The translations under genes and the position numbers were made by a program. Below are positions 53,391 to 61,877 of a stretch of 64,000 nucleotides of DNA, piece after piece. The stretch comes from an uncultured Bacillota bacterium (GTDB taxonomy: Bacteria; Bacillota_I; Bacilli_A; RFN20; CAG-826). The stretch spans positions 244,887 through 308,886 of the forward strand of contig CASEPN010000001.1 of the NCBI GenBank assembly GCA_949289845.1, read 5' to 3'. Position 1 is the stretch's first letter, and each line of letters starts with the position of its first letter. The notes below the pieces were generated by a model. That model was not told the origin of the DNA and did no database searches. It saw nothing but the letters and a program-made list of their open reading frames with translations.

Positions 53391-56300
53391 CTAGGGGAGT
53401 GGCCGCCATCCTTGCTGGAGGAAGCGGCGTTTCGATACGATTGCTCTTCTTCCGTCCTCTGTTTGGAAAGCGACAAGGAAAGCCAGCGTCCAGCGAATGC
53501 GGACTTTCCCGTAGGAAGGGTGTTCCAGGGTTGCCCCTTTTATGATGCCTTCTGCTTCATGGCGGAATGGTTCTCTTGCAGGGACTGCGACATCTTGTTG
53601 ATGTTCCGCCTGGCTTTTTCCTGATATTTGCGCGAGATTTGCAGAAGTTTCAGCTTGAGGAGCTTGTTCCAGCTTCTTCCCATCACCCTTGTTTCCTGCG
53701 GGAACGTCAGCTCGCGGAGGCAGTTCCTCATCTTGCTCTCGAAGCCCTTCATCGAAAACCGGTTGACCCTCTTCGGTCGGCATGGGCGTTTCGGTTTCTT
53801 CATCGCTGTAGAACCCGGCGACCTTCTCGCCTTCGTGCCGGTCGACGCCGAGGTAGGTGAGGGAATCGCTTTCGAAGGAACGGAACGCCAGGACCGCGTC
53901 GTTCATTTTCTGCCTGTTGAATAGCTTCAGGCTCATGAGGAGGTCGAAGTCCTCGAGGGTCAGGCCTGTCACCTTGGTGAAGAGGTCTTTGTCCTGCCCG
54001 CGGATCACCTCCTCCACGGCTTTCTCCCGGATGTCGGTCAGGTACATGAATACCGGGATGCGAGTGATGAACTTCAGAAGCTTCTGTCGGATTTGGTCGC
54101 GGAGTTTGAGGTACTGCTTTCTTTCTTCCTTAAGCTGTTTCTTCGCTTCGTCCTCTTCTTCCGGCGTGGCCGTTTCCCGTTCCTTGATCTCATGGATTTT
54201 CTTCGACCTTCCGATGACCGCCTCGATGACTTCCCTAGGCTTCCCTAAGGAACGGAAGGCTTCGATTTTCTCGATTGCCGCCAGCGCATCGGGATTGTTC
54301 ATCACGCGCTGGAGGATCATGTCGGACACATCGACGAGCGCCGCGTCCTGGAACTTGCGCGAGAGCATGTTCCCGGTCATTCCCTTGGCAAGGTAGTCGA
54401 GAATCTCGCCCGCGTCCACCTCGGTCAGGATGGAGCCGTTATATACAAGGACCGGGAGATAGGAGATGAGCTCGCTGATTTCCTTCTCCTTGTCCTCTCC
54501 TTCCATCTTGGTGTCTTCTCCCTGGTGAGAGCCGTACTCGGCGATTTCCCGGAGGGCCCTTGTGGGGGAGAAGTCGAAGATGTAGCACTGCTTCTTGTAG
54601 ATGACGTCGTTCCCGTCCTCGTCCTTCCCTTCCCAAGGGGACTGGATGCGGAATGCGCTTTGGAAATAAGTCTCGGGAGAGGACAGGTCCCGGAGCATGA
54701 GGATGGCGGTCCATGGGCGGACGGTCACCCCGGTCGTGAGCTTTCCGCAGGTCAGCACGATGGTCTTCGTCTCGAAAGGATTCTGCCCCATGGCCCGCTG
54801 CACCGGGGGGAGCGCGGCGAGGCCGATCCCTGCTTTCGGGCCTGATGCGTCCACGATGGCGAACTGGCGGTAGAAGGGCTTGTGCTCCGGGCTTTCTAGA
54901 AGTTCTTTCATCGCATGGCATTCCGCGACGTTCTTGAGGAACCAGACGGAATGGTTCATCGCTTTCGGCGAATTCTTGCCATTCGAGTAGGGCCAGGGCG
55001 CCTCCCTTCTTTCTGCCAGCGAATCCGCGATGTTGCCGGCGGATCCGGTATGAAGGAGGGTCAGGAAGCGCGAGACGTCCTCCTCATGGACGAAGCGGCA
55101 CTTCCCGTCAGGGCCCTCTTCCGCCTTGAAGAACTCATCGAGGCTGAACGAATCGAACTCGCTCTTGCCGATCGCGTTCTCTAGCTCATCGGGCAGCTTG
55201 ATTGCGAAAAGGAGCACCTCGGGGAGTGACGAGTAAGGGTTCTTCCCGTTCTCATCGTTCCAATTCGCCTTCGCCCGTTGCTCGTCCGTGTAGGTCCAGG
55301 AATAAATCTGGTCCTCGAGGAATTCGCCCGTGTTCAGCATCCGGAACGGGGTCCCGGAGAGATATAGGTAGTGCTGGGTCTTGATGTGCAGATCTTCTTC
55401 GGAAAGACGCTCGCGCTCTTCCGCCTTTCCTTTCCTCTTGCCGGCTTCAGCTTCTTCTTCCTCCCGGATCTCAGCCTCCTCGTCCACGCCTTTTCCAAAG
55501 TAGTCCTTAACGTTGTCGCGCCAGGCGCCGAAGTGATACTCGTCGAATATGACCAGGTCCCATCTTTCCTCGTGGAGGAACTCGTGTTCCCTCTTGAAGC
55601 GGTTGAGCGATTTGTCAGCGCCGAGGAGGTCCTGGAAGGAGCCGAAGATGACGATCGGCCTGTCCTTGTCCGCCTTGAGGAATTGGGCGTCGATCTTCTC
55701 GCCCGCATCCTTCCCGCTCGTTCTGGAAAGGAACTGCCATCCTTCGAAATCCCGATGGCGCATGAGGTCATCGCGCCATGCGCTTTCGACAGCAGGCTTG
55801 AACGTGAAGATGAGGATCCGCTTGTAGCCAAGCGCCTGGGCGAGCTTGTAGGCGGCGAAGGTCTTGCCGAACCGCATCTTGCAGTTCCATAGGAATCTGG
55901 AGGGGGCGAAAGGGGCGTCCGCGTCCTGCTTTTTGAAGTAGCGGGCTGTCTTATCGACGGCTTCCTCTTGTTCCGGCCTCATGCGGAAGGAGAGATCACG
56001 GGTTTGCGAAAGAGCCCTCCGCTCCACTACGTCAAAGTAGGCGGATTTGGCATCCTCAAGGGAACAACGGAAGAATTCGGTAAGGTTGCCGTTCCTGTCT
56101 CTCAGCCGGAAGAATCCCTTTTCTTCGAGCCTCCTGTGGATGTCGTGGTCGGTGAAGGTGGTGCCGTCTTCCCGAACTGCTGGCTGGCTGAAAAGATAAT
56201 GAATTTCTTCAGTCCCGGCGGGGTGGAGTATCCCGCCAGAAAGTTCCTTTCTCCTTCTTTCGAGGTTATTCGTCATGCCGATTTTCAACGTGTCCGTCGA

Positions 56301-56393
56301 TGTTGTAGGATCCCAGAAAACGTAGATGTACGGGGGCTTTTGAATTGGACCGGCTAATGAGATGGTCCGATGTCGGATGTTTTCTTGAGACAC
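53391..56393 (-). CDS. GIY-YIG domain fused to DEAD/DEAH-type helicase (restriction subunit)
   Basis: 1000 residues from GTG 56393, placed directly after the methylase stop with AGGAGG upstream. N-terminal GIY-YIG-like (T5orf172-type) nuclease domain: PPYIYVFWDPTTSTDTLKIGMTNNLERRRKEL (19-51). SF2 helicase: WNCKMRFGKTFAAYKL (motif I variant, about 168), VIFDEYHFGAW (motif II, DEYH), LYLSGTPFRML (III), VLTCGKLTTGVTVRPW and QSAFRIQSPW (V, VI). The C-terminal ~200 residues are charged. It is the presumed restriction and translocation subunit of the methylase pair encoded upstream. The fused GIY-YIG head would provide cleavage. Confidence 0.85.
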   Translation of the reverse strand: MSQENIRHRTISLAGPIQKPPYIYVFWDPTTSTDTLKIGMTNNLERRRKELSGGILHPAGTEEIHYLFSQPAVREDGTTFTDHDIHRRLEEKGFFRLRDRNGNLTEFFRCSLEDAKSAYFDVVERRALSQTRDLSFRMRPEQEEAVDKTARYFKKQDADAPFAPSRFLWNCKMRFGKTFAAYKLAQALGYKRILIFTFKPAVESAWRDDLMRHRDFEGWQFLSRTSGKDAGEKIDAQFLKADKDRPIVIFGSFQDLLGADKSLNRFKREHEFLHEERWDLVIFDEYHFGAWRDNVKDYFGKGVDEEAEIREEEEAEAGKRKGKAEERERLSEEDLHIKTQHYLYLSGTPFRMLNTGEFLEDQIYSWTYTDEQRAKANWNDENGKNPYSSLPEVLLFAIKLPDELENAIGKSEFDSFSLDEFFKAEEGPDGKCRFVHEEDVSRFLTLLHTGSAGNIADSLAERREAPWPYSNGKNSPKAMNHSVWFLKNVAECHAMKELLESPEHKPFYRQFAIVDASGPKAGIGLAALPPVQRAMGQNPFETKTIVLTCGKLTTGVTVRPWTAILMLRDLSSPETYFQSAFRIQSPWEGKDEDGNDVIYKKQCYIFDFSPTRALREIAEYGSHQGEDTKMEGEDKEKEISELISYLPVLVYNGSILTEVDAGEILDYLAKGMTGNMLSRKFQDAALVDVSDMILQRVMNNPDALAAIEKIEAFRSLGKPREVIEAVIGRSKKIHEIKERETATPEEEDEAKKQLKEERKQYLKLRDQIRQKLLKFITRIPVFMYLTDIREKAVEEVIRGQDKDLFTKVTGLTLEDFDLLMSLKLFNRQKMNDAVLAFRSFESDSLTYLGVDRHEGEKVAGFYSDEETETPMPTEEGQPVFDEGLREQDEELPPRADVPAGNKGDGKKLEQAPQAETSANLAQISGKSQAEHQQDVAVPAREPFRHEAEGIIKGATLEHPSYGKVRIRWTLAFLVAFQTEDGRRAIVSKRRFLQQGWRPLP

Positions 56394-57979
56394 TCAAAAC
56401 CTCCTGCCTACCCACTCGTCCTGATTTGTTACGAGGTTCTCGATATACGAGATTTCGGCGCTGCTCAACTCAAAGAGCGAATAGATGGACTGGTCATCCC
56501 ATTTCCTATCTAAAGGAATCGCTGGAACTAAGGAGAACGTCTTCTTAGACATGTTTTGCGACACTTTGCTCAATCCGGTCATGAACCTGAAGAAGCGTGT
56601 CCTGACATAAGCAAAACAGCGCTTGCACATTTCTTCAGAGTCGAAGGGGCCAACCTCCAACAGGCTTTCAGTGCATGCCTGTCCAGGCATTCCAATCCAA
56701 GGTTCAGATATGATTTTGCTTGGGATTTTCCGCCAAAGAAGTTCGCTGCCAAGGGCCTTTGGTATAAATAGCTTGTATCTCCACAATCCTTCCGATTTCG
56801 AGAATGGATAATCCGCGGGTAGAGTGTTGACGGAGGAGTCTTGCCCCAAGACCTTGATAAAGGCATTGTTGCGCACGGATTCATTAGTTTTGTGATGTGT
56901 CTTGAAGAAATTTGATTCAAGGCCGTAGGGTTTCCTCGATGCAACGAGCGAACTAAATGATTCGTATCCCTTAGATTGGACTTTGGTCATGATTGAAGCG
57001 CAAATTTCGTCTTTTGGGAAAGTTGTTGCGTCTCGGTAGTCGATAGACGCTTTGCTCACAAGATCGTTTTCGTTATGGCGGAAAATGGTTGTGGCTCCTT
57101 GGTAACTTGAATCCCATAGGTAATATCCAACGGCGCCTTCGACGCTGTTGTCGGGGAAACACTGGTGCGAGTCGTTGAATTCGTGAAGGATTCGCAAGTG
57201 CCCAGCCTTGATCAACTGATTTCTTAGGGTTTCTGTCGAAGGTTCTTGGGAGAGCCATTTCATGGGCGTGATCATCAAAAGGTAGTGCGGTCGCATCCGT
57301 ATGGCGTTTAGGACAAACCTGTCGTATATCGGCCTGCTCTTTTGGTGATTCTCTGGATCCGAGCCTGTATGAATGTGGTAGGGAGGATTCCCGATGATTA
57401 CGTCAAATTTCATATGAAAAATTTCCTCGGGTATGTCGGTATGAATGAATTCGTACGCATAGACTTCCTTCCCAATGCGTTCTTCTCTTCCCAAAAGTTC
57501 TCGTCTTGCGGGACAAAAGTGGCATTTCCCATGCTTATCAAATGTGTGGCCGATATCGCGGAAACGAACGTTTCCTTCTTCGCCACACATTTGGACGGCA
57601 GAGTACTTCCCGGACGCGTCCCTTGAGCAGTAAAGGGTCCTTCTGCTCATAAGCGCAGTCAGTTCCGTGATCGCGATTCCGTAGACTTGCCTTTCGAGGA
57701 TATGGGTCCGCCGCTCCTCTGGATTGGGAATCGCCTCCTTTAATCCCTCGAACAAGCGTCGGGCGATTTCGCGGAGAAAGATTCCGGTCTTGCAAGCGGG
57801 GTCGAGGAACGTCTTGCTGGGGTCGGAGAAGATGCCGGGGCAATTATCCTCAAGCATGTCCAGCATCTCGTTCACGAGCCACGGGGGAGTGAAGACTTCG
57901 TCGCTGGATAGGTTCGCGATCGTTTCGAGAATGTCGGTTCCCCTCCGGTTCGCGGGGAGGAGGATGTCCAGCTCTCCGC

Positions 57980-57983
<4 letters not shown>
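56394..57983 (-). CDS. Eco57I-type N6-adenine DNA methyltransferase
   Basis: 529 residues from ATG 57983, which overlaps the stop of the upstream methylase gene (ATGA) and has GGGAGG before it. SAM-binding motif I TFLDPACKTGIFLREIARR (59-75) and catalytic motif IV VIIGNPPYHIH (NPPY at 199-202). Residues 150-162 carry Cys/His (KHGKCHFC) that may bind zinc. The rest (about 260-529) is the target-recognition part. Methylates adenine N6. GC content is low (about 48%), indicating horizontal origin. Expression probably depends on translation of the phase-variable gene in front. Confidence 0.9.
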
Positions 57984-58680
<697 letters not shown>

Positions 58681-58820: not shown

Positions 58821-58901
58821 TTGCATAACGTGCAAGAAGCGCTGATTCCTAACTTGCATAACGTGCAACAAAACAGAAATGCAAGCTTGCATAACGTGCA
58901 A
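58821..58901. repeat. three 15-bp palindromes at exact 33-bp spacing
   Basis: TTGCATAACGTGCAA at 58821-58835, 58854-58868 and 58887-58901, identical, start to start 33 and 33 bp. Arms TTGCA / TGCAA. Spacers share no obvious sequence. Because 33 = 11 codons, each strand is open through the array with a repeated short peptide (LHNVQ, or CTLCKL on the minus strand). Confidence 0.9.
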
Positions 58902-58942
58902 ACATCCGATGGCACCCGATCTTTTGCCCTAGGGAAATATAG

Positions 58943-58957
58943 TGCGTTTTCCGTTAA
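58943..58957. repeat. isolated copy of the TGCGTTTTCCG repeat
   Basis: TGCGTTTTCCGTTAA, sharing TGCGTTTTCCGT with the third unit of the array at 61609, located 2.6 kb away beside the other array. Confidence 0.6.
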
Positions 58958-60171: not shown

Positions 60172-61572
60172 CTAGAGGAACATCGCCATGTAGACGGGAA
60201 TCAAGTCGATTTCGCCTTCCCTCCCCCTATCCTTCGTGTGGATGATCCGGGGACGGACGTAGCGAGAGGGGTATTTCTCCCGGAAGAGGTCGAGCGAGCG
60301 ATGGGCGCGCCAGGCCGCTCCCTTTATCTCGATGGGAGAGACCTTGTCCCCCTCGGGGAGAAGGAAGTCGATCTCGTAGTAGCGGTTCGCCTCCTCGTCG
60401 TAGAAGGCGTGGTAGAAGAGGCCCTTCCCGCTTGCGGCGAAGGTCTGCGCGACGACGTTCTCGTATAGGTAGCCAAGGTTGGCGGGAAGCTTGTCCGAGA
60501 GAAGCTTCCTGTAGATGACGTTCTCGGTGAAACTCTTGTCGCGGAAGCATTCTGTGACGTAAAGCCCTGTGTCCAGCAGATAGAGCTTGAACTTATGGAG
60601 GCTCGCCGTCCTGGACATGCCGGGGCCGGGGTCGTCGGCGTGCCGCTTGGCGAGGACCGTTTTGCTCTCAAGAAGGCCGGGGAGGAGCTCTTCGAGCCGG
60701 TCGGCTCCTCCCGCGGCTCTTTTCCCCTGGAAGAAGGTGCGGTTGGCGGCCAGCTGGCCGGGGATCGAAAGGAAGAGCGCGGAAAGCCTCCCTCTCTGAT
60801 CGATTTTTCCGAAATCTTCCTCATACAGGCGGAGGATGTCCCTCTTCGTCTCGTCGACTTTCGAGAGGTCGTTCGCCTCAAGGAATGTTTCAACCGCCTG
60901 CGGCATCCCTCCGACGAGCATGTAGAGGCGGAACTTCCTCATCATCTCGCGGTGCGCCGCCTGGCCAAGGGGGATCCTCTTCTCGTAGGCTTCCCGGAGA
61001 AGAGAGACCGTCCCTCCCTCCCCGATGGCCCAGAGGAATTCCTCGAAGTCCATGGGGCGCATCTCGATCTTCCTCTCCTCGCTGGGGATGAGGATGCCTT
61101 CGACGTTCTTCCGGATGGAGAGGAGGGAGCCGGTCTCGATGTAGTCGTAACGGCCGTCCTTCACCAAGAGCTTGATCGCCTGCCTCGCCTTGGGGCAGAG
61201 CTGCACCTCGCCGAAGACGATGAGGGTGTCGCGCCTCTTGAAGGAGACTCCGTAGGCCAGCTGGAGGCGGAGGAAGAGATAGTCCAGGTCCCGCGGGGCC
61301 TCGAATAGCCCTTTCACTTCCTCCCCGGCGCTCGTGAAGTCGATGAGAAGATGCGAGGAATACTCCTTCTTGGCGAACTCCTCCACGATGGTGGACTTCC
61401 CGACGCGCCTTGCTCCTTCTATGAGGAGGGCGGTTTTCCCTTGGGAGCGTCCCTTCCAGGCGAGAAGCCTGTCGTAGATCTTTCTTCGGGAGAAGGCGAT
61501 GGCCGATGAATACGTCTTTTTTCGGCCCCGTTCAAGGCTATCTTGCGTTTTCCGCAACAGGAAATTGACCAT
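60172..61572 (-). CDS. AAA ATPase with DUF4143 (AAA_14 family), start uncertain
   Basis: The core starts near residue IYDRLLAWKGRSQGKTALLIEGARRVGKSTIVEEFAKKEYSS (Walker A GARRVGKST), continues with TLIVFGEVQLCPKARQAI (Walker B, VFGEVQ in place of FDE) and DYIETGSLLSI, and ends with NRYYEIDFLLPEGDKVSPIEIKGAAWRA, a PD-(D/E)XK-like site (E-I-D ... E-I-K). ATG 61572 gives 466 residues; the expected family start near SRRKIYD (about 61500) lacks a start codon, and the frame is open further up to 61743. Its 5' end runs through the 33-bp repeat array, so either the repeats are translated (LLRKTQ repeats) or they are an operator and the start codon is non-standard. Lies between two transposase remnants. 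Confidence 0.75.
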   Translation of the reverse strand: MVNFLLRKTQDSLERGRKKTYSSAIAFSRRKIYDRLLAWKGRSQGKTALLIEGARRVGKSTIVEEFAKKEYSSHLLIDFTSAGEEVKGLFEAPRDLDYLFLRLQLAYGVSFKRRDTLIVFGEVQLCPKARQAIKLLVKDGRYDYIETGSLLSIRKNVEGILIPSEERKIEMRPMDFEEFLWAIGEGGTVSLLREAYEKRIPLGQAAHREMMRKFRLYMLVGGMPQAVETFLEANDLSKVDETKRDILRLYEEDFGKIDQRGRLSALFLSIPGQLAANRTFFQGKRAAGGADRLEELLPGLLESKTVLAKRHADDPGPGMSRTASLHKFKLYLLDTGLYVTECFRDKSFTENVIYRKLLSDKLPANLGYLYENVVAQTFAASGKGLFYHAFYDEEANRYYEIDFLLPEGDKVSPIEIKGAAWRAHRSLDLFREKYPSRYVRPRIIHTKDRGREGEIDLIPVYMAMFL

Positions 61573-61623
61573 TTCATGCGTTTTCCGCAATAGACATTCG
61601 CAAGAAGTCTGCGTTTTCCGTAA
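61543..61623. repeat. three 15-bp palindromes at exact 33-bp spacing
   Basis: TTGCGTTTTCCGCAA (61543-61557), ATGCGTTTTCCGCAA (61576-61590) and CTGCGTTTTCCGTAA (61609-61623), start to start 33 and 33 bp. Same layout as the array at 58821 with a different core. On the minus strand each codes for LLRKT followed by Gln or His. Confidence 0.9.
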
Positions 61624-61877
61624 TAAAACATGTAGCAGGCCCGCTGGAGCGCCGGGATCGGATACTTCAGGACACCGGAAAACGGAAAGAGATTCATAAG
61701 ACCGAGAAGGGGAGCGTGGCAATTCCTTTCCAAGCACGGACATTCCGTCTGATGGGGATCAATCCCCGGATCTTGCGATTGAAGAACAAGCCTGAACATC
61801 CTTGTGTCCGCGGCCCTTTTGTCCGATCGTTGCGTTCTCCTGTTCTGTGACAAATGATGTGAACCAAAATCAGGAGC

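Follow-up and report, generated by a model that had tools for sequence, protein, structure and literature searches.

Spaced upstream repeat arrays in two subfamilies of DUF4143 ATPase-nucleases: a probable operator private to each gene

Introduction

What is the role of three short repeats, spaced at exactly 33 bp, at the 5′ end of a gene for a DUF4143 ATPase? Such an array is found in the window analysed here, a stretch of 64,000 nucleotides from an uncultured Bacillota bacterium. A sequence-only reading of this DNA had described the array as palindromic, and had proposed a family of ATPase genes that each carry a private array, either as translated N-terminal repeats or as a self-recognised DNA element. 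Literature searches on DUF4143, COG1373 and AAA_14, covering papers outside most subscription journals, found no description of such an upstream array.

The proteins concerned match the PADLOC models of PDC-S01, an ATPase fused to a PD-(D/E)XK nuclease. PDC-S01 has been reported to rank fourth in abundance among prokaryotic defence systems (29,494 bacterial and 9,986 archaeal instances), with no known mechanism (PMC12988326), and to be the single locus found most often in rumen genomes (PMC13356809). The PADLOC candidate label is the sole source of a candidate antiviral role for the proteins discussed below. A conserved cis element at each gene would be a first handle on what PDC-S01 proteins bind.

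The array in front of the window gene

The array consists of three 15-bp units with start-to-start distances of 33 and 33 bp (Table 1), exactly as had been claimed. It shares TTGC and GCAA arms with a second array at 58821, from which it differs in the 7-bp centre; this observation was confirmed, as was the overlap with the ATPase open frame, since the minus-strand ORF 60172-61743 is open through the whole array. The window gene has no clear start codon. The core TGCGTTTTCCG has four copies in the 1.30-Mb genome, three of them in this array and one at 58943. When the window and 20 other stretches (464 kb, or 36% of the genome) were scanned for three-copy repeats with periods of 18-60, only the window-gene array and the one at 58821 had a period of 33. 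Both results set the array apart from a chance occurrence.

Table 1. Features of the window discussed in the text (positions in the window).
Feature	Position	Strand	Remarks
Class A DUF4143 ATPase-nuclease gene	60172..61506	-	AAA_14 + DUF4143, PADLOC PDC-S01; conserved part begins near 61506
Weak candidate promoter	61507..61535	-	TTGAAC-17-TATTCA; family phase; putative, poor consensus match (4/6, 3/6)
Array unit 3, closest to gene	61543..61557	-	minus strand TTGCGGAAAACGCAA, plus-strand letters TTGCGTTTTCCGCAA
Array unit 2	61576..61590	-	minus strand TTGCGGAAAACGCAT, plus-strand letters ATGCGTTTTCCGCAA
Array unit 1 (gene orientation)	61609..61623	-	minus strand TTACGGAAAACGCAG, plus-strand letters CTGCGTTTTCCGTAA
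Extra copy of unit core	61676..61687	+	CGGAAAACGGAA; inverted and imperfect; upstream of array
Second 33-bp array	58821..58901		three identical TTGCATAACGTGCAA units at 58821, 58854, 58887; precedes minus-strand DNA methyltransferase gene
Fourth TGCGTTTTCCG copy	58943..58953	+	sole copy outside the ATPase array; adjoins second array

Distribution of the arrays: class A and class B

Spaced arrays a short way ahead of the start codon are a general rule of two DUF4143 subfamilies, referred to here as class A and class B. Within the order of the source organism, 60 gene regions from relatives were combined with genes from family searches, and the resulting 94 genes were analysed for any repeat period. 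The lag spectrum of 92 upstream regions has peaks only at 23/46/69/92 and at 32-33/64-66; these peaks are absent from internal coding sequence. On the protein tree, 32-33-bp arrays occur in 36 of the 41 genes of one clade (class A, which includes the window gene) and 23-bp arrays in 16 of the 18 genes of another (class B). A general DUF4143 trait can be rejected, as the remaining 35 genes on the tree, in other clades of 22 and 13, contain at most three weak cases.

The same picture emerges across phyla. Class A relatives were collected from 80 named genomes, spanning Clostridia, Bacilli, Treponema, Bacteroidales, Verrucomicrobia, Kiritimatiellae, Chloroflexi, Coriobacteriia, Azoarcus, Endomicrobium, Fibrobacter and one euryarchaeote MAG. 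In these genes the lag spectrum has no peaks other than those at 32-33 and 64-66. A strict three-copy score was passed by 70 of these 80 GTDB genes and failed by 10, as against 0/80 coding controls, and at six pairs of control spacings at most two of the 80 genes passed. Another set of 84 class A genes, taken from the window's own phylum, behaves similarly (57/83 pass). In class B, arrays at exactly 23 bp were found in 42 of 48 genes, and none of the 48 has an array at 20, 21, 22, 24, 25 or 26 bp. Arrays are also carried by class A and class B genes on IMG/VR contigs and by plasmid-borne genes of Segatella copri and Collinsella aerofaciens. These figures come from repeat calling that is biased towards strong arrays and from database loci that are mostly metagenome-assembled genomes.

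The proposed family of DUF4143 ATPase genes, each with its private spaced array, is thus supported. Two findings would have spoken against it: homologues generally without arrays, and arrays equally common beside unrelated genes. The former is contradicted by the cross-phylum counts, the latter by the genome scan and by the array-free homologues of the methyltransferase gene next to the second array (see the final section). The source genome itself has 11 DUF4143 loci, several of which, as read by eye, are preceded by spaced repeats of other units at 33 or 23 bp. Some genomes of the order (G014, G030) hold 31 to 42 DUF4143 genes in less than 2 Mb.

Anatomy and privacy of the units

When 110 class A arrays are aligned by register, a loose consensus emerges, AAAnTCnYTYGAAAAATnTGCA, with a single orientation relative to the gene. 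Most arrays have three units and some have four to six; some genes have two clear copies only, and 32-bp and mixed spacings are common in class A. Both within arrays and between homologues the units are conserved and the linkers variable, with about half of each period conserved, which is the pattern of selection on units over linkers. Being mostly three or four degenerate units with no conserved neighbour gene, the arrays are not CRISPR-like. One long class B array (L353) has two different units alternating at 23 bp.

Units differ between paralogues in one genome, so that many distinct units coexist, and two units that were searched for in their own genome hardly occur elsewhere in it. Palindromy does not define them: units across the family are no more palindromic than shuffled sequences. 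The palindromic look of the window-gene array, which the sequence-only reading had made part of its proposal, is incidental.

Phasing to predicted promoters

Promoters were predicted by consensus match. Downstream of the last unit, predicted −10 hexamers fall at +20, +30/31, +40/41, +51/52 and about +62, a periodicity with a Rayleigh R of 0.46 at 10.5 bp that none of 300 shuffles reached. The array sits upstream of the predicted −35 element or overlaps it. The weak candidate promoter of the window gene has its −35 at +28 and its −10 at +51, counted from the register start of the last unit. The repeated sites are thus in helical phase with the gene's own predicted promoter, which is the arrangement of an operator array. 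Such phasing points to a protein that works from one constant side of the helix, with or against RNA polymerase, and speaks against the array as RNA or as coding repeats. Judged from sequence, the array is probably a promoter-linked DNA operator and not a set of translated repeats; a role as RNA is improbable.

The ATPase-nuclease

The AF2 model of the class A protein has a pLDDT of 91. Its residues 1-330 match STAND NTPases, namely archaeal 2qen (Z 16) and 2fna (Z 15) and CED-4 (Z 13.5); plant NLRs and Avs5 are further structural matches. The modelled fold corresponds to the STAND arrangement of nucleotide-binding, helical and winged-helix domains with a Walker A motif, GARQVGK[TS] in the alignment consensus. 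The C-terminal part has a conserved PD-(D/E)XK motif, E-I-D ... E-V-K (EIDFL in the consensus), in which E376, E391 and K393 are invariant or nearly so. A search of PDB sequences with the class A profile returned nothing at E 0.01.

The PADLOC PDC-S01 HMMs match the window protein with E 7e-91 and class B with E 2e-64. They also match a DUF4143 paralogue without an array; the arrays mark two clades only, not every PDC-S01-matching protein. A DUF4143 gene of another clade (L009) is flanked on each side by one copy of a perfect palindrome, TTGTAGAATTCTACAA. In the close relative G018 the array is the same as that of the window gene, but only about 170 codons of the ATPase precede a truncation. 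The stretch past the truncation (L137:3000-9550) is replaced by about 6.6 kb, encoding what by eye are a large helicase-like protein, a MoxR-like ATPase and a VWA-like protein.

Which protein reads the array

The neighbourhood offers no obvious reader. No neighbouring gene is conserved, the best being present at 4 of 80 loci, and those four are related ATPases. A single host regulator is unlikely, because many different units coexist in one genome and the units tested hardly occur elsewhere in theirs.

Unit similarity tracks the similarity of the adjacent protein (rho 0.36), with none of 200 permutations as high for any segment tested; the covariation is about equal for all broad protein segments and no domain clearly stands out. 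At the level of single columns, mutual information in the discovery set pairs residues 395-399 with unit position 3. Asn398, just past the ExK motif of the nuclease, goes with G/C at that position in 14 of 14 cases in this set and, in sequences fetched later, in 7/10 as against 1/30 (Fisher p 5e-5). Independent tree pairs give 4.7 with and 0.0 against, a borderline result from few pairs (median p 0.06), and residue 398 was selected among about 10,000 cells. Once the sets are combined, it lies outside the top 30 cells; nuclease-domain columns such as 375 rank higher, and the maxima of mutual information are close to those of shuffles.

Taken together, the privacy of the units, the absence of conserved neighbouring genes and the covariation of one residue with one base are suggestive of self-recognition by the ATPase-nuclease. 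Of the two branches of the earlier proposal, the second, a self-recognised DNA element, is the one that fits best.

Proposed mode of action and alternatives

The repeats are probably the operator of the gene's own promoter, read by the gene's own product, which as an oligomer would adjust its own transcription. This reading, made at the level of sequence, draws on clade-specific presence, fixed spacing, unit privacy, selection on units over linkers, and helical phasing to predicted promoters; binding of the ATPase to its own array, which covariation supports, and regulation are its conditional parts. At least three copies of a gene-specific site of about 15-17 bp would lie 33 bp, or about three helical turns, apart. 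With this spacing, several protein molecules would line up along the same side of the helix, either overlapping the −35 element or immediately upstream of it. The reader would most likely be the gene product itself, a putatively oligomeric STAND-type ATPase that combines a winged-helix region with a PD-(D/E)XK nuclease domain. Class B would work likewise with a spacing of 23 bp (two helical turns). As to the sign of regulation, repression would be more likely than activation.

Two alternatives move the array from DNA into a gene product, and both are hard to credit. That it encodes N-terminal repeats of the ATPase (LLRKT-Q/H) is extremely improbable. The frame is indeed open through the array in the window gene and in G018, but of 167 class A arrays just 8 lie in a frame that is open to the start codon; spacings of 32 bp, mixed spacings and spacings of 23 bp, a length not divisible by three, break the frame, and homologous proteins start past the array. 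This branch of the sequence-only reading has been abandoned. Transcribed repeats acting as an RNA antitoxin or guide, in the manner of type III toxin-antitoxin or guide-like systems, would agree with the layout: in type III systems, too, each possibly toxic gene has its own private set of repeats immediately before it. The predicted promoter elements, however, follow the last unit and are in helical phase with it, so that the array would not be part of the transcript; the linkers lack conservation, and class B has a 23-bp spacing. An RNA role is accordingly very improbable.

The remaining alternatives keep the array as bound DNA. An operator bound by a separate host transcription factor or nucleoid protein would yield identical promoter phasing; it is unlikely, since the many different units found in a single genome would call for as many private regulators, no such regulator is conserved nearby, units are hardly found elsewhere in the genome, and the unit follows protein similarity and one residue of the ATPase itself. 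About equally unlikely is a self-tag or parking site, on which the nuclease would be held inactive at its own array, the DNA serving as a brake or sensor, and be freed or triggered when phage DNA, modification or titration disturbs the complex. The combination of a STAND ATPase with a conserved nuclease motif in a defence candidate would suit such a role, as would the covarying residue beside that motif and the near absence of the private sites elsewhere in the genome, and the overlap with the promoter would couple release to expression. Plain regulation accounts for the promoter phasing, however, and there is no direct sign of a brake or trigger. A combined form, in which the array would be both operator and self-tag read by the nuclease domain, with a phased oligomer parked on its own gene until a phage signal releases or activates it, is a speculative option with a modest minority chance. 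If it holds, one of the commonest candidate immune proteins would be restrained by a DNA-encoded brake, and the 33- or 23-bp spacing would be a structural fingerprint of the oligomer.

Comparison with known systems

MalT is a DNA-binding STAND regulator that binds repeated promoter boxes, and by analogy the class A protein would work on its repeated DNA sites in oligomeric form. Beyond the likeness in fold of residues 1-330 to STAND NTPases (2qen/2fna, CED-4, NLRs, Avs), the class A protein differs in its fusion to a nuclease and in its private sites at its own gene, with no regulon seen. Iterons and plasmid centromere-like repeats are short direct repeats set about 22 bp apart, a helical spacing, and the protein that reads them is encoded by an adjacent gene. 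The arrays resemble iterons in being short direct repeats at a fixed helical spacing, but as a rule have no replication or partition genes nearby, are phased to a promoter, and belong mostly to chromosomal loci. In type III toxin-antitoxin systems (ToxIN), private tandem repeats lie directly upstream of the gene, and this layout is shared by the arrays. The difference is that the array is DNA upstream of a predicted promoter with only about half of each period conserved; repeat RNAs of the type III kind are not indicated.

The array predicts sequence-specific DNA recognition, an oligomer with a fixed distance between repeats, and autoregulation, all of which could be tested with one protein and a 120-bp DNA. 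Natural unit-protein pairs could help to decode the recognition rules of STAND-nucleases, and the distinction between 23 and 33 bp gives a simple rule for splitting the mixed PDC-S01 candidate family.

The orphan array and its surroundings

The array at 58821 is an orphan, as no DUF4143 gene lies behind it, and its unit is hardly present elsewhere in its own genome. Together with the stray core copy of the ATPase array (58821-58953 in all) it has the methyltransferase gene on one side and rpsO on the other. That such arrays belong to the methyltransferase family can be rejected, given that homologues in four other genomes have none; the orphan may instead be a relic of a lost class A gene.

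The methyltransferase gene contains a (CT)n run at 58433-58468, at which the frame is broken here and open in the close relative G018 (L137:1554-2318). This difference suggests, at the sequence level, a phase-variable restriction-modification gene. Beside the orphan array, at 53391-58040, lie genes for an Eco57I-type methyltransferase and a T5orf172/ResIII protein, which resemble type IIG restriction systems.
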